DNA of 64,000 nt. Origin: Phyllobacterium lublinensis. Lineage in GTDB: Bacteria; Pseudomonadota; Alphaproteobacteria; Rhizobiales; Rhizobiaceae. Shown piece after piece: positions 28,621 to 63,505 of the stretch. The position numbers and the translations under genes are program-made. The DNA lies in the NCBI RefSeq assembly GCF_020164435.1, contig NZ_JAIUDQ010000014.1, positions 62,001 to 126,000 on the forward strand, read 5' to 3'. The notes below the pieces were generated by a model. That model worked only from the letters and a program-made list of their open reading frames with translations. It was not told where the DNA came from and searched no databases. Every line of letters begins with the position of its first letter. Position 1 is the stretch's first letter.

Positions 28621-28697
28621 GCGCCCGTAGCTCAGCTGGATAGAGCACCAGACTACGAATCTGGGGGTCAGAGGTTCGAATCCTTTCGGGCGCGCCA
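28621..28697 (+). tRNA. tRNA-Arg(ACG)
   Basis: A 77-nt cloverleaf. Acceptor stem GCGCCCG pairs with CGGGCGC, followed by G and an encoded CCA. The anticodon stem CCAGA/TCTGG encloses loop CTACGAA with anticodon ACG at 28655-28657. The T-arm contains GGTTCGAATCC. The anticodon is expected to be modified to ICG and read CGU, CGC and CGA. Confidence 0.97.
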
Positions 28698-33844: not shown

Positions 33845-33971
33845 TAAAGTTTCCGTCCGGGGCACTCCTCCTCCCAAGCCGCGGGCGTTTAAAGACTGGC
33901 ACTCCTCCTCCCAGCCAGTCTTTACAAATAGCACCCACCGCACCTCCTCCCGCGGTGGGTGTTGTTTTTTG
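33845..33971 (+). ncRNA. cuckoo/CcsR-like sRNA with three CCTCCTCCC-loop hairpins
   Basis: Three consecutive hairpins follow the DUF1127 stop. Hairpin 1: 33854-33887, 10-bp stem with one mismatch and one wobble, loop ACTCCTCCTCCCAA. Hairpin 2: 33891-33923, perfect AAAGACTGGC stem, loop ACTCCTCCTCCCA. Hairpin 3: 33932-33961, perfect CACCCACCGC stem, loop ACCTCCTCCC, then a T run. The loops are anti-Shine-Dalgarno sequences. This layout matches the cuckoo RNA family of alphaproteobacteria and the CcsR RNAs of Rhodobacter. The three RNAs may be processed from the DUF1127 mRNA. The 5' end is not known. Confidence 0.82.
33932..33970 (+). terminator. intrinsic terminator of the DUF1127/sRNA transcript
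   Basis: The third hairpin (perfect 10-bp stem CACCCACCGC/GCGGTGGGTG) is followed by TTGTTTTTT at 33962-33970, a strong Rho-independent terminator. Confidence 0.88.
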
Positions 33972-43712: not shown

Positions 43713-43789
43713 GGTCCCGTAGCTCAGTAGGATAGAGCGACAGATTCCTAATCTGTAGGCCACTGGTTCGAATCCAGTCGGGATCACCA
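43713..43789 (+). tRNA. tRNA-Arg(CCT)
   Basis: A 77-nt cloverleaf. Acceptor GGTCCCG pairs with CGGGATC (one G-T pair), followed by A and an encoded CCA. The anticodon stem ACAGA/TCTGT encloses TTCCTAA with anticodon CCT at 43747-43749. The T-arm is CTGGTTCGAATCCAG. It reads AGG. The content of the window changes to accessory genes just downstream, and tRNA 3' ends are common integration sites, but no duplicated 3' end was found here. Confidence 0.97.
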
Positions 43790-46227: not shown

Positions 46228-48573
46228 CTAATTCCCAAACCGCCGGCTGCCGTTCGCGTTCTTTCCGACGACTTCGCGGATAATCGTCAGGGTTTCCCTG
46301 GCCGCATCTTTTGGCGGCAAAGCCGTATCAGCGACGTTGCTCACAAGCTTCGTAATGTCATGATCTATGTTTTTCTCGGACCAGCGCTTGCCGCTGGCAA
46401 CGGTTATGTAAACCGAATAAGCGTGGTGCATAGTTCCAGGTCGCTCACCTATGATGTGGAGAATTCCTCTCAAGGTATTGGGGTCTGCATTTTCGAAGAG
46501 CAGCTCGCCGATCCGGTATCCCGCCCGCACCCGTCCGCCGGTAACAAGAATGTTCGTGTCGCTCATCGGAATGTCGGCGTCGGCAAGCAGTCTGCGCATT
46601 TCCGCCAAATAGGGTGCGAGATGTCCATCGTCCATAACGGCCTTGGCATTCAGGCCATCGGAAATGACTATTTGGCCCTTCGGTAAGTTCTCCCCCCAGG
46701 ACTCCCTCAACCTTTGAATTTCAATGATCCCTTCCGGGCTCAGCATTTCACCCGACGTCGGATGGGCGATATAGTCGTCGCGGTCCCTGGACAGGCTACG
46801 AACCGGTATGACATTGGGTACGGCGGCGATGAAGTCGGATGTCAGCTCGGCCCAAAGAGACTTTTTGGCATCGTCGTAGAGCCCCTTGACCTTGACCGCG
46901 AGGTCGGGATTGAGGTCCCAGATATTTTCACCGTGCCCGGTCGCCAGATCGACGCCCCTGCCCTCCACCTCACTCATCTTTACCCGGCCCTCCGCATACA
47001 CGGCGTCCTTGGGTCGTTTGTCACCTTTGGCGAGCCGATACTGGTAGTAAACCCAGAGAGGATCCCCGTAGTTCACCGTGTATTTGTCATTCTCATCGAC
47101 GATTCCGATGCGTTTGTAGAATTGCCACATCGCATCATCGACCTTGAAGCCGAATTTGTCCCTTAACCGAACGTGATCTTGGAAAGACGTCGTCAGATAG
47201 CTCAGCATCGGATCATTCTTCGTAGGCAGTGCTATCAGATAGACTGGGTTGGCGGGCATGATCTGGTCCTGGCACCAATCCAAATCGTCCAGGCTGACCG
47301 TCATGTGCAGCGTCGTGCAAATATCAAGGCCAATGGTCAGCCCATGTAATTTACCCATGGCGATATCCTCGAGACAGCACCTTACCAGTTGTTCTCGACT
47401 CTTGAAGACCTCGGGCCCGATGAAGCCGGCCACATCGTTGACGTGAAGCCACGCTCCTCTCGGCTGCACCTTAGCGAGCTCCAGCCCCACCGCTCGGCTA
47501 AATCCATACTTTCGCGATTCAAGCACCATCATGTCGACGCCATTCGCCACGCCGTTCGTGAATTCCGAACCCTGGCCGGTTTCGAAGTAGAGGCCATATC
47601 TTTGGCCCTTTTTCGCGCTCGCATATTTCAAGATCTTGTCGTTGGTGATGTCGAAGATTTTATTGCAAGCATCCGTCCCCGCAAGACTCTGGAACATCGT
47701 CGCAACGGTTCCCGGGTAACCTTCATTCACCTCCGCCTGAACATCGATGTGCGCAAGCACGCACCAGGGAATAACGTCGCCCAGCTTGAACGTATCGACG
47801 ACATCTTTCAGCGCCCGCTCGACCTCGACGACGCTCGCGACCGTGCTGTCCACCGGATTGGTACCTATGACGATGTCACCCGTTGCGTAGGAGAAGGCAT
47901 CAAATACCTGCCAGATGACGTCATCGGGATGATCCGTGGGAGAATTGGGCTGGATGCGAGCCCCCATATATCCCTTTGATCCGATCCTCGTGCCTGGCAG
48001 TACATTGAAGATTTTCTGACCCAGGGTAATGAGTTCCTCATTGCTCATCAGTTTTGGCACGCAGCCGATTGTATCGCTGGTCAGCCCGTTCATGACGCCC
48101 TTGATGTCGTCCTCCGACCGCGACAAGAGAAATTCCTTCAGCTGGCCCATGGTCCAGTCCTTGACCCTCGCATACTGGACCTGGTCGGTGGTCTGCCAGA
48201 TCAGCCGCTGCAGATCGTCCTCGAAGAGCGGGTGCTGGTAGAGATCCGCGATTTTCGTGTTTGCTAACAGGGCGCGGGCGTGTTTCCGCGTCGTCTCGTC
48301 GGGGGCGGCTGCGCCTATGGCCCGATCACCCTCCTTGAAGTCGTTGGCGGCGCCAATCACCTGCTGGTAGATGCCCTGATCAAAGCCCCCTTTCACCCTG
48401 GCTATATAGGCGAAGACATCCTCGCCTGGCGCGACCTCCGCAATCGCGATGTCTTCCCGATTGGCAGCCCTTGCGGCACCGGCATAGCTCGCAAGGGCGG
48501 TCGCGGCCCCCACCATGACGAGCAGCTCTCTTCTGGAAAGCCCTTCATGTCCCTGCGGCAAGCCCTTTTGCAT
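46228..48573 (-). CDS. eutBC: ethanolamine ammonia-lyase, EutB-EutC fusion with Tat signal
   Basis: Adenosylcobalamin enzyme that splits ethanolamine into acetaldehyde and ammonia. The 781-residue chain holds both subunits. Residues 1-36 are a twin-arginine-type signal (LSRRELLVMVGAATALA, then AARA). Residues about 40-495 match EutB: ARIQPN (Arg206, Gln208), VIGTNP (Asn239), YFETGQGS (Glu331) and GLD (Asp417) correspond to the known active-site residues. Residues about 570-770 match EutC (VISDGLNAKAV, IGERPG). Normal EutB and EutC are separate, cytosolic and unprocessed, so fusion plus export signal is odd. GGGGAG precedes ATG 48573. It follows the adh gene by 86 bp. No eutA reactivase is nearby. 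Confidence 0.87.
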   Translation of the reverse strand: MQKGLPQGHEGLSRRELLVMVGAATALASYAGAARAANREDIAIAEVAPGEDVFAYIARVKGGFDQGIYQQVIGAANDFKEGDRAIGAAAPDETTRKHARALLANTKIADLYQHPLFEDDLQRLIWQTTDQVQYARVKDWTMGQLKEFLLSRSEDDIKGVMNGLTSDTIGCVPKLMSNEELITLGQKIFNVLPGTRIGSKGYMGARIQPNSPTDHPDDVIWQVFDAFSYATGDIVIGTNPVDSTVASVVEVERALKDVVDTFKLGDVIPWCVLAHIDVQAEVNEGYPGTVATMFQSLAGTDACNKIFDITNDKILKYASAKKGQRYGLYFETGQGSEFTNGVANGVDMMVLESRKYGFSRAVGLELAKVQPRGAWLHVNDVAGFIGPEVFKSREQLVRCCLEDIAMGKLHGLTIGLDICTTLHMTVSLDDLDWCQDQIMPANPVYLIALPTKNDPMLSYLTTSFQDHVRLRDKFGFKVDDAMWQFYKRIGIVDENDKYTVNYGDPLWVYYQYRLAKGDKRPKDAVYAEGRVKMSEVEGRGVDLATGHGENIWDLNPDLAVKVKGLYDDAKKSLWAELTSDFIAAVPNVIPVRSLSRDRDDYIAHPTSGEMLSPEGIIEIQRLRESWGENLPKGQIVISDGLNAKAVMDDGHLAPYLAEMRRLLADADIPMSDTNILVTGGRVRAGYRIGELLFENADPNTLRGILHIIGERPGTMHHAYSVYITVASGKRWSEKNIDHDITKLVSNVADTALPPKDAARETLTIIREVVGKNANGSRRFGN

Positions 48574-48659
48574 GGCGATCTCCCCGTTGTCGAAGACCTA
48601 TGTTGCGATCAGGCCAGCCGCCCCCGTGCCGGTCTGTTTCAGGATAGGCTACGTCGCGA

Positions 48660-49682
48660 TCAGATTGTCATCACGACCCGGCCGTCGATTTTGTTGTGCC
48701 GCATCCGGTCGAATATGCTGTTGATATCGTCAAGACGCTCTGTCGAGTAGTGAACCTTCACCTTTCCATCGCCGGCGAACTGGAGGCATTCGGCGAGGTC
48801 CAAGCGGGTGCCGACGATCGACCCCCTGATGGTCTTGCGGGTGAGGACCGTGTCAAAGATGTCGAGTTCGAACGAGCCTGGTGGCAATCCAACTAGAGAC
48901 ATCGTGCCGCGTTTGGCGAGCATACCGAGGCCCTGCCGGAAAGCAACCGGCGAGACCGCCGTTACGAGCACCCCCTGAACTCCGCCGCAAAGCTTGCGGA
49001 CCTCCGCCACCGGGTCAGTCGTCTTGGCATTGATAACAGCGTTTGCGCCCATGTTTCGGGCGAGTTCCAGTTTCTCGTCGGCTATGTCGACTGCGATGAC
49101 GTCGAGGCCCATTGCCTTCGCATATTGTACCGCGACATGTCCGAGCCCTCCGATGCCGGAAATCACGACCGTATCGCCGGGCTTCGTGTCGGTCTCCTTC
49201 AACCCCTTATACACTGTGACGCCGGCGCACAGGATCGGAGCGGCGGCTTCAAAGCCAAGGCCGGCCGGTAGATGCCCGACATAGTCGGGATCCGCAATCA
49301 CATATTCCGCGAAACCGCCATTGACAGAATAGCCGGTGTTCTGCTGGAGATCGCACAGAGTTTCCCAGCCGGCGAGACAGTGCCGACAATGTCCGCAGGC
49401 CGTGTGGAGCCATGGCACGCCGACACGGTCGCCCTCCTTGACCGCCGTGACGCCGGCGCCGACCGCGACGACCGACCCAACGCCCTCATGCCCCGGAATG
49501 AAGGGGGGACTGGGCTTCACCGGCCAATCGCCATCGGCCGCATGCAAGTCGGTGTGGCAGACGCCACAGGCTTCAATCTTCACGAGGATCTGGCCCTGAC
49601 CGACCTCGGGGATCGGCACCTCCTCGATGGACAGCGGTTTCTTGAACTCTCGCACGACGGCGGCTTTCATCGTCTTCGACAT
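48660..49682 (-). CDS. zinc-dependent alcohol dehydrogenase
   Basis: A 340-residue medium-chain dehydrogenase of the AdhP/AdhA type. Catalytic zinc ligands lie in CGVCHTDLHAADGDW and PGHEGVG; the structural zinc site is CGHCRHCLAGWETLC; the NAD-binding motif is GIGGLGHVAVQYAKAMG. It interconverts acetaldehyde and ethanol. AAGGAGGG precedes ATG 49682. Being directly upstream of eutBC on the same strand, it can consume the acetaldehyde made by that enzyme, although the two products may be in different compartments. Confidence 0.92.
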   Translation of the reverse strand: MSKTMKAAVVREFKKPLSIEEVPIPEVGQGQILVKIEACGVCHTDLHAADGDWPVKPSPPFIPGHEGVGSVVAVGAGVTAVKEGDRVGVPWLHTACGHCRHCLAGWETLCDLQQNTGYSVNGGFAEYVIADPDYVGHLPAGLGFEAAAPILCAGVTVYKGLKETDTKPGDTVVISGIGGLGHVAVQYAKAMGLDVIAVDIADEKLELARNMGANAVINAKTTDPVAEVRKLCGGVQGVLVTAVSPVAFRQGLGMLAKRGTMSLVGLPPGSFELDIFDTVLTRKTIRGSIVGTRLDLAECLQFAGDGKVKVHYSTERLDDINSIFDRMRHNKIDGRVVMTI

Positions 49683-50283: not shown

Positions 50284-52533
50284 ATGCAATATACTTCATA
50301 CGTTCCGACAACTGATTTCGTCGCTCAATTCGGTCCAACCGGTCTCGCTTTCGATTACGCGTTGGATGCCTTTCAGCGCCGCGTACTGTTTTGGGACGTA
50401 ATGCGTAAGCGAGGCAACCAGTACAGGACCCATGCCGAAGCCACTGCTCCACATGTGTTGAGCTTCACGCCGGAGGTCTTGCTCGATGGCCGCGAGCTTG
50501 ACAAACCGGTCAACTACGCACTGGCTCGGATCATCCCGCCCAAGGGGATTGAGGTCGATGATTTGCGCCGGCCATTCGTAGTCGTAGACCCGAGAGCTGG
50601 ACACGGGCCGGGTATCGGTGGGTTCAAGGCGGATAGTGAAATCGGCGTCGCTCTGCGAGCCGGGCACCCATGCTACTTCATAGGGTTTCTGCCCCAACCG
50701 GTCCCGGGACAGACGATTGAAGACATTGTGCGGGCAGAAGCGATCTTTCTGGAAAAGGTCATCTCGCTTCATCCCCAGGCGGACGCCAAGCCCTGCGTGA
50801 TCGGAAACTGCCAAGCCGGCTGGGCGGTCATGATGCTGGCGGCCATGCGTCCCGAACTTTTCGGCTCGCTCATCATTGCGGGCGCGCCACTTTCATACTG
50901 GGCGGGCGAACGCGGGAAATACCCGATGCGTTACACCGGCGGATTGTTGGGCGGGAGTTGGCTCACAGCGCTTACAAGCGACCTCGGGCATGGAAAGTTC
51001 GACGGCGCCTGGCTGGTGCAGAATTTCGAGAACCAGAACCCGGCAAACACGCTCTGGACGAAGCAATATAATCTATACTCGAAGATCGATACTGAGGCGA
51101 CGCGCTACCTTGGTTTCGAGGAATGGTGGGGTGGTCACGTCAGCCTCAATGCGGCAGAAATCCAGTTCATCGTTGACGAACTCTTCATCGGCAACAATCT
51201 TGCCTCCGGGCACATCAACACTTCGACGGGAGAGGCGATCGACCTTCGTAACATCCGTGCGCCGATTGTTGTCTTCTGTTCCAAGGGAGACAACATCACG
51301 CCACCCGCACAGGCGCTCGGATGGATTCTAGACCTTTATGACGACGTGAACGAGATCCGCTCGCATGGGCAGACGATTGTCTACACCGTGCACGAGACAA
51401 TCGGTCATCTCGGAATCTTCGTGTCGGCAAGTGTCGCCCGCAAGGAGCATGGCGAATTCTCCAGCAACATCGATCTGATCGACGCACTGCCGCCGGGACT
51501 CTACGAAGCGACTTTTGAAGCAAAGACCGCTGAGACCGTTGGCGGAGACCTGGTCGAGGGTGACTGGATCATGCGATGCGAGGCAAGAATGCTCGACGAC
51601 ATCAGGGCGCTTGGTTGCAATGATCCCGAAGATGATCGCCGCTTCGCGACCGTGGCAAAGGTCTCTGATATCAATCTGTCACTCTACAAGACGTTCCTTC
51701 AGCCATTCATCCGTACAATGGTGCCCGAATCTGCGGCCGAGCAATTGCGCGCGATCCACCCGCTCAGGTTGCAGTATGAGCTGTTCTCCGACTTCAATCC
51801 GTGGATGGCACCCATAGCTGACCTTGCTGCCAAAGCAGCGGACGAGCGCCGTCCAGTCTCGGCGGACAATCCCTTCCTGGCCCTGGAGCAGGCGTTTTCG
51901 CGCCAAATTGTTGCAGGACTGGACGCATGGCGTGAGGGAGTGGAGGCACTGAGTGAAGCAACCTTTGTTTCCGTCTATGGCTCCCCTCTCCTGCAGGCGG
52001 CTGTCGGCATCGATCCGTCGGACACAGGGCCGCAGCGGCGTGCAAGCAAGACCGGGCCGCACGCACAAGCCTTGAAGGCAAGGATCGTGGAACTCAAGGC
52101 GCAGACAGGCAACGGCGGCTTGCGCGAGGCCATGGCGCGTAGCTTGCTTTATGTCGCCATCGCGAGCGGCGCAGCCGACGAACGTGGGTTTGCTGCAATC
52201 CGACGCATGCGGCGTTCCGAAAACGGAATGCCGGCAATGACATTGGCAGAATTCAAGGCGTTGATCCGCGACCAGTTCCTCATGCTGATGATCGATGAAG
52301 AGGCTGCCGTCAATGCGATTCCAGGGCTCCTGCCAGCCGAGGATGAGGTTAGACGCGACGCCTTAGCCTCCCTTCGGGAGGTCTTGAACGCACGAGGCGC
52401 ACTTTCCGGCGCAGCCGAGCTACGCTGGCAGCGGATTGTTGGACTCTTCGGCCTTGGCGAAGAGCCGGTGCCGGAGCCTGTATCGCCGTCGGCGAAGTCC
52501 TTGCTGGTGAAGGTTGTCCGCCAAGCAAGCTAG
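50284..52533 (+). CDS. DUF3141 domain protein (PhaC-like alpha/beta hydrolase)
   Basis: A 749-residue protein related to poly(3-hydroxyalkanoate) synthases. The fold core has VVVDPRAGHGPGIGG and a nucleophile elbow IGNCQAGWA with Cys near residue 176, as in the PhaC lipase box. IVVFCSKGDNITPP (Asp) and HETIGHLGIF (His) complete a plausible triad. About 350 C-terminal residues are helical and of unknown role. TAGGAGAG precedes ATG 50284. In Rhizobiales this family is typically found with pta, ackA and fabI, as here; polymer synthesis has not been shown. Confidence 0.9.
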   Translation: MQYTSYVPTTDFVAQFGPTGLAFDYALDAFQRRVLFWDVMRKRGNQYRTHAEATAPHVLSFTPEVLLDGRELDKPVNYALARIIPPKGIEVDDLRRPFVVVDPRAGHGPGIGGFKADSEIGVALRAGHPCYFIGFLPQPVPGQTIEDIVRAEAIFLEKVISLHPQADAKPCVIGNCQAGWAVMMLAAMRPELFGSLIIAGAPLSYWAGERGKYPMRYTGGLLGGSWLTALTSDLGHGKFDGAWLVQNFENQNPANTLWTKQYNLYSKIDTEATRYLGFEEWWGGHVSLNAAEIQFIVDELFIGNNLASGHINTSTGEAIDLRNIRAPIVVFCSKGDNITPPAQALGWILDLYDDVNEIRSHGQTIVYTVHETIGHLGIFVSASVARKEHGEFSSNIDLIDALPPGLYEATFEAKTAETVGGDLVEGDWIMRCEARMLDDIRALGCNDPEDDRRFATVAKVSDINLSLYKTFLQPFIRTMVPESAAEQLRAIHPLRLQYELFSDFNPWMAPIADLAAKAADERRPVSADNPFLALEQAFSRQIVAGLDAWREGVEALSEATFVSVYGSPLLQAAVGIDPSDTGPQRRASKTGPHAQALKARIVELKAQTGNGGLREAMARSLLYVAIASGAADERGFAAIRRMRRSENGMPAMTLAEFKALIRDQFLMLMIDEEAAVNAIPGLLPAEDEVRRDALASLREVLNARGALSGAAELRWQRIVGLFGLGEEPVPEPVSPSAKSLLVKVVRQAS

Positions 52534-52577
52534 CGACAGCGACATGAAAGCCAAGGGCTCAGGTCTGCCCTTAAAAA

Positions 52578-53561
52578 ATGGAGCATGTAGAGATGCCGGA
52601 TCTGGAGCATATTGGGGAAGAATCTGAGCTTCACCAGAAGTACGAACGATTAATCGCCAAGGCCAAGCTGACGCCGGTGATGAGGACTGTTGTTGCCCAC
52701 CCTTGCGACGAGACATCGTTGCGCGGGGCAGTCGAGGCGGCGGAAGTAGGGCTGATGCGACCGATCCTGGTCGGGCCGGCAGCAAAGATACATGCCGTCG
52801 CGAAACTACACGACATCGATGTCTCGCCGTTCGAACTGATCGACACGCCTCACAGCGACGCGGCCGCGGCAAAAGCGGTAGAGATTATCCGCGAAGGCGG
52901 CGCCGAGTTGCTTATGAAGGGAAGCCTGCATACGGATGAGCTCATGCGCGCCGTGACCTCTTCCGCCACGGGCCTGAGGACGGCGCGCCGGATAAGCCAT
53001 GTCTTCGTGATGGATGTCCCGCACCATGCGGAAACGCTCTTTATCACGGACGCCGCTATCAACATTGCGCCCGATCTCGATGTCAAGCGCGATATCATTC
53101 AGAACGCCATCGATCTTTTCACGCAGATCGGTCTTGGGACGCCACGCGTTGCGATCCTTTCGGCCGTCGAGACCGTCACATCGAAGATCCCCTCGACGAT
53201 CGAGGCGGCCGCCCTTTGCAAGATGGCCGAGCGTGGACAGATAACAGGCGGTATCCTCGACGGACCGCTTGCCTTCGACAATGCGATCGATCCGGAAGCA
53301 GCGCGAATAAAGGGGATTCAGTCGCCGGTCGCGGGCCAGGCTCAGATCCTCATCGTTCCTAATCTGGAGGCCGGCAATATGCTGGCGAAGAATCTCACAT
53401 TTCTGGCCAGGGCAGACGCCGCAGGCATCGTCCTCGGCGCGCGCGTGCCGATCATCCTGACATCGCGTGCGGATTCGGTGCGGGCGCGTCTGGCCTCCTG
53501 TGCCGTGGGGGCTTTGCTTGCCGATGCGCGCCGCCGCACGGAACCGATAAAGGGCGTCTGA
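52578..53561 (+). CDS. pta: phosphate acetyltransferase (Pta-like)
   Basis: A 327-residue phosphate acetyl/butyryl-transferase family protein that interconverts acetyl-CoA and acetyl phosphate. Seen: RGAVEAAEVGLMRPILVGP, GGAELLMKGSLHTDELMRAV, ILSAVETVTSKIPSTIEAA, GILDGPLAFDNAI and VPNLEAGNMLAKNL. Many Rhizobiales relatives carry an N-terminal MaoC-like hydratase domain; this one does not. ATG 52578 lacks a ribosome site; ATG 52593 is an alternative. It lies 44 bp after DUF3141 and 3 bp before ackA. Confidence 0.9.
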   Translation: MEHVEMPDLEHIGEESELHQKYERLIAKAKLTPVMRTVVAHPCDETSLRGAVEAAEVGLMRPILVGPAAKIHAVAKLHDIDVSPFELIDTPHSDAAAAKAVEIIREGGAELLMKGSLHTDELMRAVTSSATGLRTARRISHVFVMDVPHHAETLFITDAAINIAPDLDVKRDIIQNAIDLFTQIGLGTPRVAILSAVETVTSKIPSTIEAAALCKMAERGQITGGILDGPLAFDNAIDPEAARIKGIQSPVAGQAQILIVPNLEAGNMLAKNLTFLARADAAGIVLGARVPIILTSRADSVRARLASCAVGALLADARRRTEPIKGV

Positions 53562-53564
53562 TCC

Positions 53565-54737
53565 ATGGATACCATTCTCGTCGTGAATGCCGGATCGTCC
53601 AGCTTGAAGTTCGAGGTGTTTTCAGTTGGGGACTCGCTGGCGCGCCTGGTCAAAGGCCAGATGGGAGGGATCGGCACTGCGCCGCACCTGACCATCCGGA
53701 GCCCCAGCGGTGAGCGACTTGCAAACGGAGACTATCCGCCCGAAGCCGTTCCCGACTTGCCCTCGGCAATGCACGTGGTCGGAGAATGGCTTCGGCAGCG
53801 GCAGCAGGGCAGACTGATTGCCGTTGGGCATCGCGTCGTTCATGGGGGACCGAAACATTCCCGTCCGGCCCGCATCGATGACGATTTGCTGCGTGACCTT
53901 GAACGCTACACGCCGCTGGCGCCCTTGCACCAACCCAACAACCTCGCGCCAATCCGCGTGCTGCAGGAACGCCAGCCAGAGCTCGCGCAGGTTGCATGCT
54001 TCGACACAAGCTTTCATCGCGGCCATGACCCCATGACGGACCACTATGCCATCCCGGCGCATTATTTCGACGAGGGCGTTCGGCGTTACGGCTTTCATGG
54101 GCTGTCCTACGAATATGTGGCCGCAAGACTCGCAGAGATCGCGCCGGGCATTGGCAGCGGACGCGTCATCATTGCGCATCTCGGAAGCGGCGCTTCCATG
54201 TGTGCCCTCTACGGGGGGCGGAGCGTTGAGAGCACATTAGGGTTCACCGCTCTCGACGGGCTGCCAATGGGCACTCGATGCGGACAGATCGACCCCGGCG
54301 TGCTTCTCTACCTGCTGCAACAGCACGGCATGACGGCAGCGCAACTGCAGGACCTTCTCTACAAGGAATCGGGGCTCAAGGGGCTTTCAGGCGTCAGCAA
54401 TGACGTGCGTGACCTGCTTGCCAGCGACAGTCTCGGTGCGACGCTCGCGCTCGACCATTTCGTCCATCGCATCGGCCTCAACGCAGGAGCGCTTGCGGCC
54501 GCAGTCGGCGGGCTCGACGCCTTTGTTTTCACCGCGGGCGTCGGGGAAAATTCCCCGGTGATGCGTGCGCGAATTTCCAGCAAGCTCGCCTGGCTCGGCG
54601 CGTCGCTCGACGCCGGACGAAACGACGCCGGGGACCTGCTCATCTCAAGCGACGACAGCAAGGTTGCGATCTATGTCGTGCCGACTGATGAGGAACTGAT
54701 GATCGCACGCCATACGGTCGCGCTCATCAGTTCGTAG
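53565..54737 (+). CDS. ackA: acetate kinase
   Basis: Makes ATP and acetate from acetyl phosphate. The 390-residue protein starts with the phosphate-binding [12 protein letters not shown] and has [35 protein letters not shown] and [10 protein letters not shown], all typical. It begins 3 bp after the pta stop. With pta it supports acetate formation and substrate-level phosphorylation when respiration is limited. Confidence 0.96.
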
Positions 54738-56282: not shown

Positions 56283-56751
56283 CTCAGTTGCGACTCCAAT
56301 GAGATTAAGTACTGAATTCCGCTTAAAGAGATTATTCCTGTTGCAACAATTCGACAACAAGCTCATGCGCAGTTTGCGCTTGTCTCCCGTTGCAGCAATA
56401 GGCCACGCAGTTTCAGACTGGCAATTGGCGCAAACCGGAAACAATACGTGAACCCATTCGCCTTCCGGCAGCAAATAGCTACGAGGAGCAACCAACCGAC
56501 ATTGTCCGCTTCGTGAAGACCCTCACTGGGTGAAGCGAAGTTGCTGGGAAGTGGCCGTAACGAAAACAGCCCTTCGCTTGTCGTTGTCTTTTGCAATCGC
56601 ACTCAATCGGATGGGCCTTTTACAGCGTTCGAGCGCGATGACGGCCATGGGCTTTCCGGTCGCAATTGCGGCTGTGCTTTTTTCAATCAAAGAGTAAAAT
56701 GATCGTGGTCAAACGAACTTGCAGTTCAGGCATGACGCGGGGGCAATCAGA
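56283..56751. other. 469-bp region between the CBS-BON gene and ccoN
   Basis: No convincing gene. It should hold promoters for both flanking genes. A candidate FNR/FixK box lies at 56699-56712, described separately. A GGGGGC ribosome site for ccoN lies near 56740. Nothing else is recognised. Confidence 0.45.
56699..56712 (+). promoter_or_regulatory. candidate FNR/FixK box upstream of ccoN
   Basis: ATGATCGTGGTCAA matches the TTGAT-N4-ATCAA consensus with one mismatch in each half (GTCAA is a tolerated FixK half). Such boxes control cco/fix operons in Rhizobiales. A class II position would place the transcript start only about 5 bases before ATG 56752, which is tight, so the call is tentative. 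Confidence 0.38.
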
Positions 56752-58410
56752 ATGATTTCACAATTGACCGGTATCGAGAGAATCGTTGCCGCTTTCACCT
56801 TCCTCATCTTGATCTGTTTCGGAGTGGCCATGGCCGCCGGCGGTCGTGATGACCTAATCGGCACCCATGGCTGGGTCATTTCGCTTGCCGGCATTGCGGG
56901 GGCAATCGCTCTCTTGCGCGGCTACGATGCCCCAGACCCGTCACCCGACAGGCTCTCCGAATATTACGACGATCCGAGCAAGGCGGGCATCATCCTGACC
57001 CTGATCTGGGGCGTGATCGGGATGCTCGTAGGCGTGTGGGTCGCCGCGCTGCTCGCCTGGCCTGAACTCACCTTCGACGCCGCATGGGCAGGCTTCGGCC
57101 GACTGCGACCGGTCCACACCAGCGGCGTTATCTTCGGCTTCGGCGGCAACGCCTTGATCGCCACCTCGTTGCATGTCCTGCAGCGGACGACACGTGCACG
57201 ACTGCCTGATCAATTCAGCCCCTGGTTTGTCCTGTTCGGCTACAACCTCTTTTGCGTTCTTGCCGCGAGTGGCTATCTTATGGGGATCACCCAATCCAAG
57301 GAATATGCCGAGCCGGAATGGTATGCCGACATCTGGCTGGTCGTCGTCTGGGTCGTCTATTTCTCGATCTATATCCGAACGCTCATGCGCCGCAAGGAAC
57401 CGCATATCTACGTCGCCAACTGGTACTACATGGCCTTCATCCTCGTCGTCGCCCTTTTGCACATCATCAACAATCTTGCCGTTCCAGTATCGTTGGGACA
57501 TGTAAAGAGCTATTCCGCATTTTCCGGGGTTCAGGATGCGATGACGCAATGGTGGTACGGCCACAACGCGGTCGCATTTTTCCTTACCGCCGGTTTCCTT
57601 GGAATGATGTACTACTACCTCCCGAAGCGGGCCGGACGCCCGATTTATTCCTACAGGATGTCGATCATCAGCTTCTGGGGTATCACCTTCATGTATATGT
57701 GGGCGGGCTCGCACCACCTCCATTACACTGCCCTCCCGCACTGGGTTCAGAGCCTTGGCATGGCTTTTTCGGTGGTCCTGCTTGTTCCCTCCTGGGCCTC
57801 AGCCGGAAACGCGCTTCTCACGCTGAACGGAGCTTGGCACAAGGTCAGGGACGACGCTGTCCTTCGCTTCATGATGCTCGCTGCGATCTTTTATGGGCTT
57901 GCGACATTCGAAGGCTCGTTCATGGCCATCCGCGCCGTCAACTCGTTGTCACATTATACCGACTGGACGATCGGTCACGTTCATGCCGGAGCGCTCGGCT
58001 GGGTGGCTATGATCACTTACGGCTCGCTCTATGCATTGACACCATGGCTCTGGAAGCGACCCGCACTCTATTCTGCGAAGCTGGTCGAATGGCATTTCTG
58101 GCTCGCCCTGTCTGGAACCGTAATCTACGTTTTTGCAATGTGGAATTCCGGAGTGATCCAGGGCCTCATGTGGCGGACCTACAACGATAGCGGAACGTTG
58201 AACTACACCTTCGTCGACTCGCTCGTCGCGATGCACCCCTACTACATTGCGCGCACGATCGGCGGCTTGCTCTTCCTGAGCGGCGCGGTAATCGCCCTCT
58301 ACAACATCGTGATGACGATCCGCACGCCCGTGCCTGCTGCCTCGGAATCTGCCTCAGACATTCCCTTCGTGTTTGAGCCTGCAGCACCGACCGCCCCTGC
58401 TGGAGAGTAA
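56752..58410 (+). CDS. ccoN: cytochrome-c oxidase cbb3-type subunit I
   Basis: Catalytic heme-copper subunit of the high-affinity cbb3 oxidase, 552 residues, about 12 to 14 membrane helices. His-rich helix segments expected for heme b, heme b3 and CuB are present: FGRLRPVHTSGVIFGFGGNA, QWWYGHNAVAFFLTAGFLG, WAGSHHLHYTALPHW and DWTIGHVHAGALGWVAM. ATG 56752 (MISQLTGIERIV) has GGGGGC upstream; a TTG at 56719 extends the frame but is not needed. First gene of the cco operon; ccoO follows after 2 bp. Confidence 0.96.
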   Translation: MISQLTGIERIVAAFTFLILICFGVAMAAGGRDDLIGTHGWVISLAGIAGAIALLRGYDAPDPSPDRLSEYYDDPSKAGIILTLIWGVIGMLVGVWVAALLAWPELTFDAAWAGFGRLRPVHTSGVIFGFGGNALIATSLHVLQRTTRARLPDQFSPWFVLFGYNLFCVLAASGYLMGITQSKEYAEPEWYADIWLVVVWVVYFSIYIRTLMRRKEPHIYVANWYYMAFILVVALLHIINNLAVPVSLGHVKSYSAFSGVQDAMTQWWYGHNAVAFFLTAGFLGMMYYYLPKRAGRPIYSYRMSIISFWGITFMYMWAGSHHLHYTALPHWVQSLGMAFSVVLLVPSWASAGNALLTLNGAWHKVRDDAVLRFMMLAAIFYGLATFEGSFMAIRAVNSLSHYTDWTIGHVHAGALGWVAMITYGSLYALTPWLWKRPALYSAKLVEWHFWLALSGTVIYVFAMWNSGVIQGLMWRTYNDSGTLNYTFVDSLVAMHPYYIARTIGGLLFLSGAVIALYNIVMTIRTPVPAASESASDIPFVFEPAAPTAPAGE

Positions 58411-58412
58411 AC

Positions 58413-59144
58413 ATGTTCAATTTTCATTATCGGCTTGAGCGCAACGCTATCGGCTTCGTCATCGCCATCATTGTCGTCGCGAGCATCGGCGGCTTCATCG
58501 AAATCGCTCCGCTATTCACCATCGACGAAACCGTGGAAAAAGCACCGGACATGCGGGTTTACACGCCGCTTGAGGTTGCCGGCCGCAACATCTACATCCG
58601 GGAGGGCTGCTATGCCTGCCACTCCCAGATGATCCGCACGTTGCGCGACGAGGTGGAGCGCTACGGCCCCTATTCGCTTGCGGTGGAGTCGAAATACGAT
58701 CATCCGATGCTGTGGGGCTCGAAGCGGACCGGACCGGACCTTGCCCGCGTGGGCGGCAAATACTCGAACGACTGGATGACCGCGCACCTCAACAACCCGC
58801 GTGACGTCGTTCCCGAGTCGAACATGCCCGCCTATCGTTGGCTGTTGCGCAACCAGTTGAAGACAGATGATCTGGGCGAACACCTGGCCGCGTTGCGGGC
58901 GGTGGGCGTGCCCTACACTGACGAGATGATCGCAAACGCGCCGAAGGACGCCATTGGCCAGGCCAATCCGGACACCGACCTGGCAGCTGGAGTGACTGAG
59001 CGGTACGGCGACAAGACCGACGTGAGCCTATTTGACGGAAACCAAGGCGCGGTCACCGAGATGGATGCAGTGGTGGCCTACCTCCAGGTCCTCGGACATT
59101 TGACGGACGCCGCCCATACCACGCCGCAGAACGAGGTGGAATGA
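58413..59144 (+). CDS. ccoO: cytochrome-c oxidase cbb3-type subunit II
   Basis: Membrane-anchored monoheme cytochrome c, 243 residues. One N-terminal helix (NAIGFVIAIIVVASIGGFIE) is followed by the heme motif CYACH (Cys66, Cys69, His70) in REGCYACHSQMIRTLRDE. A distal Met ligand is likely in VPESNMPAYRW. It passes electrons from CcoP to CcoN. It lies between ccoN and ccoQ with gaps of one or two bases. Confidence 0.96.
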   Translation: MFNFHYRLERNAIGFVIAIIVVASIGGFIEIAPLFTIDETVEKAPDMRVYTPLEVAGRNIYIREGCYACHSQMIRTLRDEVERYGPYSLAVESKYDHPMLWGSKRTGPDLARVGGKYSNDWMTAHLNNPRDVVPESNMPAYRWLLRNQLKTDDLGEHLAALRAVGVPYTDEMIANAPKDAIGQANPDTDLAAGVTERYGDKTDVSLFDGNQGAVTEMDAVVAYLQVLGHLTDAAHTTPQNEVE

Positions 59145-59145
59145 C

Positions 59146-59319
59146 ATGACGATCGATCATGAAATGTTGACGGGCTTTTCGAAAACATTCGGGTTGTTCT
59201 ACCTGATTGCAATGTCGATCGGCGTGTTGATCTATGCTTACTGGCCCTCGAATAAGAAGCCGTTTGATCGTGCTGCCAAGGCTGTGGTCTCCGACGAAGA
59301 GGACAAGCCATGTTTGTAG
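59146..59319 (+). CDS. ccoQ: cbb3-type oxidase subunit IV (CcoQ)
   Basis: A 57-residue single-span protein: MTIDHEMLTGFSKTFGLFYL at the start, helix about residues 14-33, then YWPSNKKPFDRAAK, typical of CcoQ. It stabilises the cbb3 complex. ATG 59146 is 1 bp after the ccoO stop, and its last 10 bp overlap ccoP, so all are translationally coupled. Confidence 0.92.
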   Translation: MTIDHEMLTGFSKTFGLFYLIAMSIGVLIYAYWPSNKKPFDRAAKAVVSDEEDKPCL

Positions 59320-60215
59320 GCGAACGCGACCCCTTCACCGGGCATCAAACAACCGGGCATGAATGGAATGGCATCAAGGAACTGAACACGCCCGTTCCGA
59401 GACCAGTGTACTTTTTTCTCATCACCATGGGGGTGTTCGCGCTGGCCTGGACTCTGCTCATGCCGAGTTGGCCGTATGGATCGGGATACTTCAAAGGACT
59501 GCTCGGCGTTGACCAGAAGCAGGCGGTCGCCAAGTCGATTGAGGAAGCCACAACGGGGCGCGCGCATTGGATGACCCGAATCGAAGAGGAAGACCTCTTG
59601 CAAATCCAGTCCGACACCGACCTGATGCACATCGTGCGCGAGGACGGCCGCACGCTTTTTGGCGACAACTGCGCGGCGTGCCATGGGGCGAACGCCAAGG
59701 GCAATAAGGGTTACCCAAACATCGCGCAGGCTCCGATGCTGTGGGGCGACGATCCGCAAACCGTGTTGCAGACCGTAACGGTTGGCATCAATGGCACGGA
59801 TCCCAATACCCGTGTCTCGCAGATGCTCGCCTTTGGCCGCGATGGGATGTTGACAAAGGACCAGGTCTCGCAATTGGCAGGTTTCGTAGTATCGCTGTCT
59901 GACCCGACGACGGTCACTGACAACAACAAGGAAGACATGGCCAAGGGAAAAGACCTCTTTGCCACGAATTGTGTCGCCTGCCACGGTAATGATGCCAAAG
60001 GCATCGTCGAAAGCGGTGCTCCGAACCTCACGGACAACCATTGGACCTATGGAGGTGGCCGAGGCGACATCTACCAGACCATCTATTCGGGCCGCCAGGG
60101 CCATATGCCGAGTTGGGGCAAACGCCTTACCCCTGCGCAGATCAAGATCATCACGCTTTATCTTCTGGATCTGAGGAAGCAGGCGGTTGGGCCGGTGACG
60201 GGCGGTGCATCATGA
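59310..60215 (+). CDS. ccoP: cytochrome-c oxidase cbb3-type subunit III
   Basis: Diheme cytochrome c, 301 residues. An N-terminal helix (VYFFLITMGVFALAWTLLM, about 33-51) anchors it. The two heme motifs are CAACH (121-125) and CVACH (221-225), each followed by a short G-x-x-A-K-G segment. It accepts electrons from soluble cytochrome c. The stop overlaps the start of the next small gene by 4 bp (ATGA). Confidence 0.96.
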   Translation: MFVGERDPFTGHQTTGHEWNGIKELNTPVPRPVYFFLITMGVFALAWTLLMPSWPYGSGYFKGLLGVDQKQAVAKSIEEATTGRAHWMTRIEEEDLLQIQSDTDLMHIVREDGRTLFGDNCAACHGANAKGNKGYPNIAQAPMLWGDDPQTVLQTVTVGINGTDPNTRVSQMLAFGRDGMLTKDQVSQLAGFVVSLSDPTTVTDNNKEDMAKGKDLFATNCVACHGNDAKGIVESGAPNLTDNHWTYGGGRGDIYQTIYSGRQGHMPSWGKRLTPAQIKIITLYLLDLRKQAVGPVTGGAS

Positions 60216-60400
60216 ACTTGAACATTGCCCGACCGAAACTGTTAATCTCGCTTGTCGTCGCCACTGGTCTCAGCCTGGTGATATTGGCGAACATTCATCT
60301 GGTTTACGTTGCAATCCAATCGCGGCCCGATTGCGTCGACCATTTGAAAGTCAAGGGTCAGCAGTCGGGAACTTACCGCGCAGCTGATTCAGCATGTTGA
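60212..60400 (+). CDS. small membrane protein in the cco operon
   Basis: A 62-residue protein with one helix (LLISLVVATGLSLVILANIHLVYVA) and a short tail with two Cys (RPDCVDHLKVKG, ADSAC). It overlaps the ccoP stop by 4 bp, so it is translated with the operon. It occupies the place of fixG/ccoG but is far too short and has no ferredoxin motif. I know no assigned function; the two Cys could bind a metal or form a disulfide. Confidence 0.8.
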   Translation: MNLNIARPKLLISLVVATGLSLVILANIHLVYVAIQSRPDCVDHLKVKGQQSGTYRAADSAC

Positions 60401-60446
60401 CTCACGCTCATTTAGGCAAGGCAAGCGGCATAGGGAGAGGCTTCCG

Positions 60447-61235
60447 ATGAGAATTCCAGAAACGGTTCCGCCACTTCCAAAGGCAGTCGACCGCAAAAGA
60501 CACATTTCGCCGGACGAGGCATTCGCCTGGTTTGCGCAGGGCTGGCACGATCTATGGACCGTGCCCTTTCCTAGTCTTCTCTATGGCGCTGGGGTGGCGG
60601 CAATCTCGCTCGCAATCGCTGCGGGAATTCTCTTGTACCAACTGGATTTCGCATTCTTTCCAGCGCTTGCAGGCTTCCTAGTCGTCGGGCCGGCGCTCGC
60701 GACAGGCCTCTACGTCAAGAGCCGCCGCCTGTCCAAGGGGTTGCCGGTTACACTGGCGTCCATGGTGATCCCAGAGCGCGGCACGAGCCAGCACGTACTG
60801 TTCGTCGGAGCCGTCCTGTTGGGATTAATGCTGCTGTGGATGCGCGCTGCAGTGCTCCTTTACGCGCTTTTCTTCGGCTGGCGACCATTCCCAGGCATGG
60901 ACCATATCATCCCCATGCTGTTCGGCACTCCGACCGGCATTGCGATGCTGGTGATCGGGGTTGCCATCGGCGGGATTTTTGCAGCCTTTGCCTTTGCCAT
61001 CAGCGTTTTTTCCATTCCCATGGTTTTGGACAAAAGGTTTGATGCGTTCACCGCCATGGGAACAAGCATATCCATCGTCTGGAACAATCTGCCCGTGATG
61101 TTGCTGTGGGGCGCAATCGTGCTGAGTCTGACGCTCATCGCGTTGCTTTCTGGGATGATTGGATTCATCGTCATTTTCCCACTGCTGGGTCATGCGACCT
61201 GGCATGCGTACGTGACAATGCGCGACCCGGATTGA
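60447..61235 (+). CDS. DUF2189 family integral membrane protein
   Basis: A 262-residue protein with about six helices (for example LLYGAGVAAISLAIAAGILLY, FVGAVLLGLMLLWMRAAVLL, LLWGAIVLSLTLIALLSGMI). The RHISPDEAFAWFAQGWHDLW start and the SRRLSKG loop fit DUF2189 (COG5473). Members occur in cco operons of alphaproteobacteria, but their role in oxidase assembly is untested. It lies 46 bp after the 62-aa gene and 5 bp before ccoI, where fixGH would normally be. Confidence 0.88.
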   Translation: MRIPETVPPLPKAVDRKRHISPDEAFAWFAQGWHDLWTVPFPSLLYGAGVAAISLAIAAGILLYQLDFAFFPALAGFLVVGPALATGLYVKSRRLSKGLPVTLASMVIPERGTSQHVLFVGAVLLGLMLLWMRAAVLLYALFFGWRPFPGMDHIIPMLFGTPTGIAMLVIGVAIGGIFAAFAFAISVFSIPMVLDKRFDAFTAMGTSISIVWNNLPVMLLWGAIVLSLTLIALLSGMIGFIVIFPLLGHATWHAYVTMRDPD

Positions 61236-61240
61236 CGGTC

Positions 61241-63505
61241 ATGACCTGCTGCACTCCTGCAACCCCTCTGGTCACTGCCGATGCCTTTCGTCCGTCGGCC
61301 CCGTGGGCCGAGGAACTCAGGCTGGCCAGCCGACGCGTTGGCGACGGCATACTTCAGACCGAAATCTCGGTGCCCTCGATCCACTGCGGCGGCTGCATCA
61401 ACAAGATCGAGCGCGGGCTGACCAAGCTGGACGGCGTGCAATACGTGCGGGTCAATCTGTCAAGCAAGAGATTGGTACTGCGCTGGTCGGAACTTGGGCC
61501 CCCTCCCGACGCAATTGGCGCGCTCAAGCAACTCGGCTTTAATGGGCACCTCTTCGATCCCACCGAGGCCGCAAAGCCGAGGGGCGATCTTCCAAGGCTG
61601 ATCCGGGCGCTCGCTGTTGCCGCGTTTGCGTCGATGAACATCATGTCGCTGTCGGTTTCCGTTTGGGCGGGTGCGGAAGGTTCAACCCGGGACATTCTTC
61701 ATTGGATATGTGCTGCCATCGCTCTGCCCGCGCTCCTCTACTCCGGGCGCGTCTTTTATGAGTCTGCCTGGCGCTCACTCTGGCACGGCCAAACCAACAT
61801 GGACGTGCCGATTTCAATCGGTATTGCCGCGGCATTCTCCCTCAGCGTCTACGACAGCTACCACGGTTATGATCATGCCTATTTTGATGCGGCCACGTCG
61901 CTGGTGTTTTTTCTGCTAATAGGACGAACGCTGGACTACGTTATGCGGGAACGCGCGCGCACGGCGGTTAAGGGCCTTGCGCAACTTTCGCCACGAGGTG
62001 CAATGACGATCAAGGCCGACGGCGAATTCGAATATCTGCCGTTGAAAGAGATCAGGCCAGGGACGCGTTTGTTGATCACAGCCGGCGAGCGGGTTCCGGT
62101 CGACTGCGCGGTCGACATCGGAATTTCCGATGTCGATTTCTCCCTCGTGACTGGGGAAAGCGCACCGCGCAAAGTTGAATCGGGCGCTGTCCTGCAAGCA
62201 GGGACACTCAATATCACTGGATCGTTGACGGTCGTCGCCGCTGCAACTGCCGAAGAGTCGTTTCTCGCTGAAATGATCCGGCTGATGGAAGCAGCCGAAT
62301 CCGGTAAGTCTGTCTATCGACGCATCGCCGATCGTGCGTCCGTACTATACGCGCCAGCGGTGCACATGACATCGCTCTTGAGCTTCCTCGGCTGGATGGT
62401 GATTCAAGGCGACGTTCACCAGGCAGCAACGATCGCTATTGCGGTTTTGATTATCACATGTCCCTGCGCTCTCGGGCTCGCCGTACCAATGGTGCAGGTC
62501 GTTGCGGCGTGCCGTCTCTTCGAAAACCGGATCATGGTCAGGGATGGATCGGCCATGGAGCGCCTCAACGAGATCAACACCGTTATTTTCGACAAGACCG
62601 GCACGCTCACATTGGGAGAGTTGCAGGTCGCCAACATTGATTTCATCGACCCGGATGCGCTTTCGGTGGCCGCCGGACTCGCGTCGCACTCGCGACATCC
62701 GAATGCCCGGGCTATATGCGCAGCCGCAAGCGTGCATGGCGCGACTTTTCACCGTTTCGACGAGGTAAAAGAATATCCGGGCCTGGGCTTGGAGGGCATT
62801 TATCAAGGGAAAAAGTATCGAATGGGGCGCTCGCTGTTTGCCTGCGGGACCGAAAGCAATTCCTCGGACACCGTTCTTACATGCGAGGGACGCCAGGTTG
62901 CCGCCATCTCATTTTCTGACAAGGTGCGTCCAGGGGCAAAGGCACTCGTCGACAAATTGCGAAGCGCGGGGATTTCTATGGAGATCGTTTCTGGGGACGG
63001 CATATCTGCCGTGAGGAAAGTCGCCGATGAGCTGGGCATTACCTACTACACTGCCGGCGTTTTGCCCGGGGGCAAACTTGACCGTGTCAAACAGCTGTGT
63101 AACCAAGGCCGGAAGGTCCTGATGGTCGGTGACGGACTAAACGACGCTCCCGCCCTCATGGCAGCGCACGTCTCGATGGCCCCGGCCAACGCTGCTGACG
63201 TTGGCCGCAACAACGCGGATTTCGTCTTTCTGCAAGACAGCCTTGATGCTGTGTTTCTTGCCTACAGGATTTCCCGCGATTCGGGCAAGTTGATCCGGCA
63301 AAACTTTGTCATTGCGATTGGTTACAATGTCTTGGCGCTGCCGGTTGCAATCCTTGGCTACGCGACACCTTTCGTCGCTGCATTGGCAATGTCACTGTCA
63401 TCCATAGTCGTTGTGGCCAATGCAATGAGGCTCAAGGGTGCGGCGGGGAAGGGTGAGACAAAGCCTTTTGGCCGAAAGTTGCAGTTGGGGAGAATGGCAG
63501 GATGA
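61241..63505 (+). CDS. ccoI: copper-translocating P-type ATPase CcoI
   Basis: P1B-type ATPase (FixI) that supplies copper for the CuB site of cbb3 oxidase. The 754-residue protein has an N-terminal HMA domain with HCGGC (Cys49, Cys52), the TGES actuator motif (LVTGESAPR), the membrane CPC motif (TCPCALG, 407-409), the phosphorylated Asp451 in DKTGTLT, HP in SRHPNA and GDGLNDAPAL. An extra CC pair sits at residues 3-4. ATG 61241 is taken because upstream sequence belongs to the DUF2189 gene. It overlaps ccoS by 4 bp. Confidence 0.95.
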   Translation: MTCCTPATPLVTADAFRPSAPWAEELRLASRRVGDGILQTEISVPSIHCGGCINKIERGLTKLDGVQYVRVNLSSKRLVLRWSELGPPPDAIGALKQLGFNGHLFDPTEAAKPRGDLPRLIRALAVAAFASMNIMSLSVSVWAGAEGSTRDILHWICAAIALPALLYSGRVFYESAWRSLWHGQTNMDVPISIGIAAAFSLSVYDSYHGYDHAYFDAATSLVFFLLIGRTLDYVMRERARTAVKGLAQLSPRGAMTIKADGEFEYLPLKEIRPGTRLLITAGERVPVDCAVDIGISDVDFSLVTGESAPRKVESGAVLQAGTLNITGSLTVVAAATAEESFLAEMIRLMEAAESGKSVYRRIADRASVLYAPAVHMTSLLSFLGWMVIQGDVHQAATIAIAVLIITCPCALGLAVPMVQVVAACRLFENRIMVRDGSAMERLNEINTVIFDKTGTLTLGELQVANIDFIDPDALSVAAGLASHSRHPNARAICAAASVHGATFHRFDEVKEYPGLGLEGIYQGKKYRMGRSLFACGTESNSSDTVLTCEGRQVAAISFSDKVRPGAKALVDKLRSAGISMEIVSGDGISAVRKVADELGITYYTAGVLPGGKLDRVKQLCNQGRKVLMVGDGLNDAPALMAAHVSMAPANAADVGRNNADFVFLQDSLDAVFLAYRISRDSGKLIRQNFVIAIGYNVLALPVAILGYATPFVAALAMSLSSIVVVANAMRLKGAAGKGETKPFGRKLQLGRMAG

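Follow-up and report, generated by a model that had tools for sequence, protein, structure and literature searches.

The window, a 64,000-nucleotide stretch of the Phyllobacterium lublinensis genome, encodes a protein that is probably an exported, single-chain, active ethanolamine ammonia-lyase (EAL) dependent on adenosylcobalamin (AdoCbl), which in this organism would be carried to the periplasm by the Tat system. The translated reading frame runs unbroken for 781 residues from an ATG at 48573 to a stop codon that ends at 46228, and the gene carries the following features.

46228..48573, minus strand: fused EutB-EutC protein of 781 aa, export leader included (ORF, Pfam and NCBIfam)
48580..48585, minus strand: Shine-Dalgarno-like GGGGAG, 6 nt 5' of the ATG (sequence)
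48466..48573, minus strand: Tat-type leader, residues 1-36, with SRRELL, hydrophobic core and ARA (motif and alignment)
48529..48534, minus strand: twin arginine R14-R15 (22/22 Rhizobiales sequences in alignment)
47077..48366, minus strand: EutB domain, residues 70-499 (PF06751; fold match to 2qez and 3abo_A)
46918..47076, minus strand: EutB-EutC linker, residues 500-552, mostly helical in the model (domain limits and model)
46249..46917, minus strand: EutC domain, residues 553-775 (PF05985; fold match to 3abo_B and 3abo_D)

Pfam recognized both halves of the protein and returned EutB and EutC only, PF06751 matching with E=7e-142 (473.6 bits, cut-off 25) and PF05985 with E=6e-29 (101.5 bits, cut-off 25.8). 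The protein also passed the NCBIfam EutB model NF011649 (630.4 bits, cut-off 554), and its 75 bits against the NCBIfam EutC equivalog lay under the cut-off of 230. The preliminary description of this DNA had proposed one unbroken 781-residue frame with EutB-like and then EutC-like sequence, and the profile search that it suggested bore this out, with both Pfam domains found at 70-499 and 553-775. Canonical EAL is defined by separate EutB and EutC chains, and the window protein, encoded in one frame, falls outside that definition.

We examined the active site in a 101-sequence alignment referenced to E. coli EutB-EutC. Counts were taken from its 77 class A rows, which de-duplication later reduced to 74. 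Class A was assigned with the leader left out, from domain sequence at 48% or greater identity to the window protein, and its members are at least 51% identical to that protein. The substrate and cobalamin positions of E. coli EutB and EutC, and their roles, are taken from annotation, with Gln162, Asn193 and Asp362 of EutB presumably holding the primary amine; on inspection, the letters of the E. coli sequence agreed with these positions. EutB residues R160, Q162, N193, P194, Q246, E287, F329, D362 and M401 were identical in 77/77 class A rows and S295 was replaced by Thr in all of them, while in EutC V207 was kept in 77/77, E228 in 76/77 (a gap in one) and C258 was lost, with V or L in 75 rows and a gap in 2. 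Arg206, Gln208, Asn239, Glu331 and Asp417 of the window protein, previously named as retained active-site residues, indeed align with Arg160, Gln162, Asn193, Glu287 and Asp362 of E. coli EutB. Judged from these residues, the substrate chemistry of class A looks intact.

For the AlphaFold2 model, 29 class A sequences were aligned out of the 40 then known (the window protein and 39 loci). The model had a mean pLDDT of 71 and a pTM of 0.64, with low confidence at the leader and at several barrel loops bearing active-site residues. Foldseek matched the EutB half to 2qez and 3abo_A (best E 2e-23, TM by target 0.78-0.80) and the EutC half to 3abo_B, 3abo_D and 7xrm_B (E ~1e-9, TM by target 0.65-0.68), the next-best matches after the solved EALs being diol and glycerol dehydratases. 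AdoCbl dependence is predicted from the residues together with this fold comparison. The canonical EutB and EutC of the E. coli and Salmonella eut systems thus share their folds and active-site residues with the window protein, but in the E. coli system they are two chains instead of one, encoded next to EutA and microcompartment genes.

Canonical EutB and EutC are not known to carry an export leader, and the canonical EutB start coincides in sequence with the start of the EutB domain. The window protein, as the preliminary description had stated, shows SRRELL followed by a hydrophobic core and then A34-R35-A36, and the A-X-A rule would put the cleavage site after A36. All the elements sought in a Tat substrate were found, namely the twin arginine, the hydrophobic core, the A-X-A site and a TatC encoded in the same genome, and Tat-dependent translocation of the window protein is predicted from them.

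Leaders across the family were scored independently of start codons, as a 12-residue stretch with a mean Kyte-Doolittle value of at least 1.4 that lies in the open frame 25-68 residues ahead of the EutB domain. These limits were chosen after the first leaders had been inspected, and the leader calls come from this hydrophobicity rule plus a Tat motif rather than from a trained predictor. The test read both strands with a EutB profile from the 101-sequence alignment, in which control rows L004, L006, L008, L011 and L012 (5 of the 14 Rhizobiales controls) were on the wrong strand; control counts from that alignment are not used. Setting aside L048, which is cut by its contig, left 90 of 91 distinct class A sequences judged 5'-complete, among them L105, which passed the rule and runs off its contig with its true start out of sight. 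A signal-like hydrophobic segment lay 5' of the EutB domain in 90/90 class A sequences, compared with 4/63 other EutB frames under the same rule, and by eye the four positive stretches in the latter precede a likelier start Met. Chance does not explain a leader at this position and, in answer to a check proposed at the outset, the signal accompanies the fusion across the family. An earlier automatic choice of starts, run with a higher threshold, had missed the leader in 9/77 rows (7 scored as 'none' and 2 as 'short').

A Tat motif was present in 45/90 class A leaders, and the 45/90 without one are called Sec-like, a term that denotes absence of the Tat motif and nothing more. Two Tat calls, L100 and L103, are doubtful (MRR at the extreme N terminus), leaving 43 Tat-type leaders; in L045 and L059 SRRDLL is present besides the other RR motif caught by the Tat expression. 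Parsimony places four changes of leader class on the tree, two of them at the doubtful rows. Since leader class varies and the segment is constant, export, and not one motif, is what is conserved, and the occurrence of both leader classes on one tree argues for selection on export. Sec moves unfolded chains. Should the leaders classed as Sec-like, roughly one in two, truly be so, export of a folded, cofactor-loaded enzyme, as envisaged in the preliminary description, fails as a general rule.

Among the 22 Rhizobiales sequences the twin arginine is invariant, and pN/pS was 0.59 for residues 2-12, 0.33 for residues 13-37 (RR to ARA), 0.40 for residues 38-70 and 0.15 for residues 71-781. Cysteines number 4-12 in the domain part of 74 class A sequences, 13-17 in six leaderless fusions (class B), 8-12 in three further leaderless fusions (class C) and 17 in the E. 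coli EutB and EutC chains combined. The small number in class A is as expected for an oxidising compartment, yet leaderless class C is also low. We weighed these results against the reading that the leader is vestigial or miscalled and the enzyme cytoplasmic, as would accord with canonical EAL, which is cytosolic or in a microcompartment. Of the 37 loci scored (from 39), 33 have an in-frame ATG, GTG or TTG a short way ahead of the domain or just within it, and 9 have an ATG there, so that by codons alone a shorter form is possible; however, such an ATG occurs in just 2 of the 20 scored Rhizobiales sequences of the selection test (L030 and L032), and the annotated ATG of the window gene is served by the Shine-Dalgarno-like site. 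The invariant twin arginine, the constraint from RR to ARA, the few cysteines and a segment present in 90/90 through changes of leader class further reduce this reading to a very small probability. A leader that is simply vestigial, an option of the preliminary description, is not supported in view of its conservation and of the change of leader class, Sec-like leaders occupying the same place in other lineages.

A cleaved leader and a soluble enzyme are not the only outcome compatible with export, and the segment might instead serve as an uncleaved anchor that tethers a periplasm-facing enzyme to the inner membrane. L104 and L106 have a very hydrophobic segment after a long tail, and L044 is without a clear A-X-A. 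The excerpts of PMC9426561 used here describe a two-subunit EutBC of Acinetobacter baumannii that, like the window system, works without a metabolosome or EutA; they report this EAL at the cell membrane, leave the periplasm unmentioned and assign it to two genes, with an EutC that has no predicted N-terminal signal sequence, whereas the window protein is fused and bears a leader. The window leader, however, has a good A-R-A site and a short core, and we consider tethering improbable in comparison with a soluble exported lyase.

A genome scan retrieved 39 related loci with best-segment identities of 53-84%, which by their titles belong to Rhizobiales (Sinorhizobium/Ensifer, Rhizobium, Mesorhizobium, Bradyrhizobium and Microvirga), delta-type MAGs and one Verrucomicrobia MAG. 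Class A occurred in 2/99 relatives, own genome included, and the gene is patchy within the genus (1/19 other genomes). An order-level search of 397 genomes found class A in the own genome only, with weaker EutB matches in 116 other genomes of the order, the best ones listed at 30-38% identity. Class A-level matches were found in 32/277 genomes of the class of G105 (at least 49% identity, some of them fragments), in 18/395 genomes of the phylum of G101 (counting G101 and G108 but not a short fragment of 45% identity) and in 1/387 genomes of the phylum of G109, the seed itself. Among plasmid records, 25 carry a copy with at least 77.9% identity, 23 of them from Sinorhizobium. On the tree, for which the node supports here are not given, the Rhizobiales proteins are nested within delta-type Tat-leader sequences, which suggests transfer into Rhizobiales. 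In 14/14 class A genomes tested there was one EutB match per genome, the fusion itself.

That the fusion departs from known EutB and EutC, as first claimed, does not stand. Pelobacter carbinolicus eutBC1 and eutBC2 (EutBC1, Pcar_0491; EutBC2, Pcar_0467) were published in 2012 as 'an unusual fusion' in a genome without eutA, according to the excerpts of PMC3543383 used here. The same excerpts report growth of P. carbinolicus strains on ethanolamine, suggest that the eutBC duplication may mean distinct ethanolamine and choline lyases, place a paralogue of a eutBC neighbour (Gcw_chp type) beside an ammonium transporter, and name no signal peptide for EutBC1 or EutBC2 (PMC3543383). From its eutBC arrangement we infer that G226 in our set is P. 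carbinolicus. Its two class A genes lie ~28 kb apart on the same strand, with no other match to the window protein and no BMC match in the genome, and both encode Sec-like leaders. Their neighbours, identified by clustering and by Pfam searches of homologues, most of them from G231, include a solute-binding protein, a Gcw_chp protein, a multi-span protein without a Pfam match and a Fec/Btu-type (BtuFCD-like) transporter, and between the copies are cobalamin synthesis-like genes (named by eye) and a cobalamin riboswitch. A Gcw_chp-family protein was also observed near the lyase in Pelobacter-like genomes (L117:11401-12273, with a homologue at L113:10065-10967; Pfam on the L117 copy). The G226 proteins resemble the window protein in being one-chain EutBC of class A without eutA, at ~59% identity, and the tree groups them with it inside class A, whose deepest node has a support of 0.331; they differ in their Sec-like leaders and cobalamin-gene setting, where the window protein has a Tat leader.

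Such duplication bears on whether the exported lyase acts chiefly on another amino alcohol, for example choline, rather than on ethanolamine. Eight genomes (G225, G226, G228-G231, G233 and G234) each carry a pair of class A paralogues as their sole EutB matches, in line with the ethanolamine/choline suggestion in the excerpted part of the P. carbinolicus paper (PMC3543383). On the other hand, Gln162, Asn193 and Asp362 are identical in 77/77 class A rows, both G226 copies included, and a single copy is present in 14 other genomes as well as in the own genome. We regard a different principal substrate as unlikely and retain ethanolamine.

Leaderless EutBC fusions, starting at or near the EutB domain, also exist. 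Class B comprises L119-L124 (genomes G357, G326, G314, G311, G342 and G351) and adjoins class A on trees; given the low support of the deepest class A node, it might lie inside class A. Class C, comprising L125-L127 (G140, G144 and G171), is a second leaderless fusion, in which Ala or Ser takes the position of Asp362 in 3/3 members in a single alignment; its neighbour is EutA in G140 and G144, and in G171 it lies next to a partial EutA match. Both classes are like the window protein in the one-chain fusion, at 36-38% (B) and 31-34% (C) identity, and unlike it in having no leader, class B being also richer in cysteines.

We surveyed microcompartment (BMC) and EutA genes in 40 of the 45 class A genomes then known. 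BMC shell genes were found neither in the own genome, which is 88% complete, nor in the others apart from G140 (1/40), a count that covers class A genomes. True EutA (>200 bits) was present in 2/40, G140 and G144, each time beside the genome's own leaderless class C fusion, and the other 38 gave weak EutA matches (20-32 bits) in 35 and none in 3. The own-genome match (29.8 bits) was rejected, as it falls in an FtsA-like frame flanked by FtsQ- and FtsZ-like frames (named by eye). Control genomes with other EutB types had true EutA in 9/38, all from the Desulfuromonadia-type set, and it was found in 0/13 Rhizobiales genomes with other EutB (13 of the 14 such genomes among the relatives, G088 being left out) and in none of the six class B genomes. 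Absence of EutA is thus ordinary in this order, and these controls rule it out as a marker for class A. The preliminary description had taken the lack of eutA and of microcompartment genes to support an unusual arrangement; the lack itself was confirmed in the own genome, but the absence of eutA does not single the arrangement out.

The following genes lie upstream of the lyase gene.

48660..49682, minus strand: AdhP-like zinc alcohol dehydrogenase, 86 bp upstream of the lyase (Pfam, NCBIfam)
50284..54737, plus strand: divergent genes for a DUF3141 protein, a phosphate acetyltransferase-like protein and acetate kinase (Pfam, NCBIfam)

The AdhP-like gene is possibly co-transcribed with the lyase gene, and the pta-like and ackA neighbours are a possible outlet for C2 units. 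An enoyl-reductase-like gene is also divergent. Beyond these genes come a CBS-domain gene, on the minus strand, and genes for a cbb3 oxidase. In 28 Rhizobiales loci, which include two of one species and two of one strain, an alcohol dehydrogenase of the same cluster occurred in 14 and a phosphoketolase cluster in 8. The ORF picker called the EutBC frame in 24 of the 28 (it chose a longer antisense frame in 4), and in 6/24 the same-cluster dehydrogenase lay immediately upstream in the same orientation. The DUF3141 protein (50284-52533) has weak PhaC similarity and precedes the pta-like and ackA genes, an order that we take to resemble the orfA-pta-ackA operon of S. meliloti. At 56719-63505 are COX1-type, FixO and FixP cbb3-type oxidase genes and then a heavy-metal P-type ATPase, a fixNOP/fixI-like set. 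Matches to an FNR/FixK box with at most one mismatch numbered 7 in the window against 7.0 expected, with none between the dehydrogenase and DUF3141 genes. No riboswitch was found in the window at the gathering score; a cobalamin riboswitch was found in 2/8 other loci searched (L109 and L113), downstream of the lyase and preceding genes that by eye resemble cobalamin synthesis. The window also holds an alphaproteobacterial ar14 sRNA at 33848-33967 and tRNAs at 43713-43786 and 28621-28694.

In the proposed mechanism, Tat would move the fused lyase to the periplasm, where ethanolamine would be split to acetaldehyde and ammonia outside the cytoplasm; owing to the fusion, a single leader suffices to export both domains. 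AdoCbl would be bound before Tat export here and acquired in the periplasm by Sec-type members. Acetaldehyde could then diffuse inward and be reduced or oxidised via the AdhP-like dehydrogenase and the pta-like and ackA products, and ammonium would be taken up by the cell. Export would spare the cell an ethanolamine importer and keep the toxic aldehyde from the cytoplasm without a microcompartment. The periplasm, however, is without ATP. EAL inactivates its own cofactor and its reactivation by EutA requires ATP, as stated in the excerpts of PMC5821096 used here, and this combination counts against an exported active enzyme.

Among the titles and abstract openings listed from the open-access literature searched, which leaves subscription papers mostly outside, there was no report of an exported EAL. 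The EutBC fusion and the missing eutA are already known, and the conserved export signal appears to be unreported in that literature. The reductive dehalogenase PceA is likewise a corrinoid enzyme with a Tat leader, but dehalogenases are a distinct cobamide enzyme subfamily that makes no use of the adenosyl radical (PMC5500849, in the excerpts used here), whereas the window protein matches only EutB and EutC in Pfam. For a more far-reaching proposal we see the chances as evenly divided: class A would be the first AdoCbl radical enzyme family outside the cytoplasm, export would replace the microcompartment, and the Sec-type apoenzyme would load periplasmic AdoCbl beside a corrinoid-type transporter.

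If the enzyme is periplasmic, the question is raised of how an AdoCbl enzyme would be loaded and maintained where neither ATP nor EutA is present, and AdoCbl radical chemistry would not be confined to the cytoplasm. Export would then be a third way of dealing with a toxic aldehyde, besides microcompartments and plain cytosolic catabolism. The sequences suggest that some soil and sediment bacteria may run ethanolamine breakdown outside the cytoplasm and, more speculatively, legume symbionts may in this manner use membrane ethanolamine as a nitrogen source.
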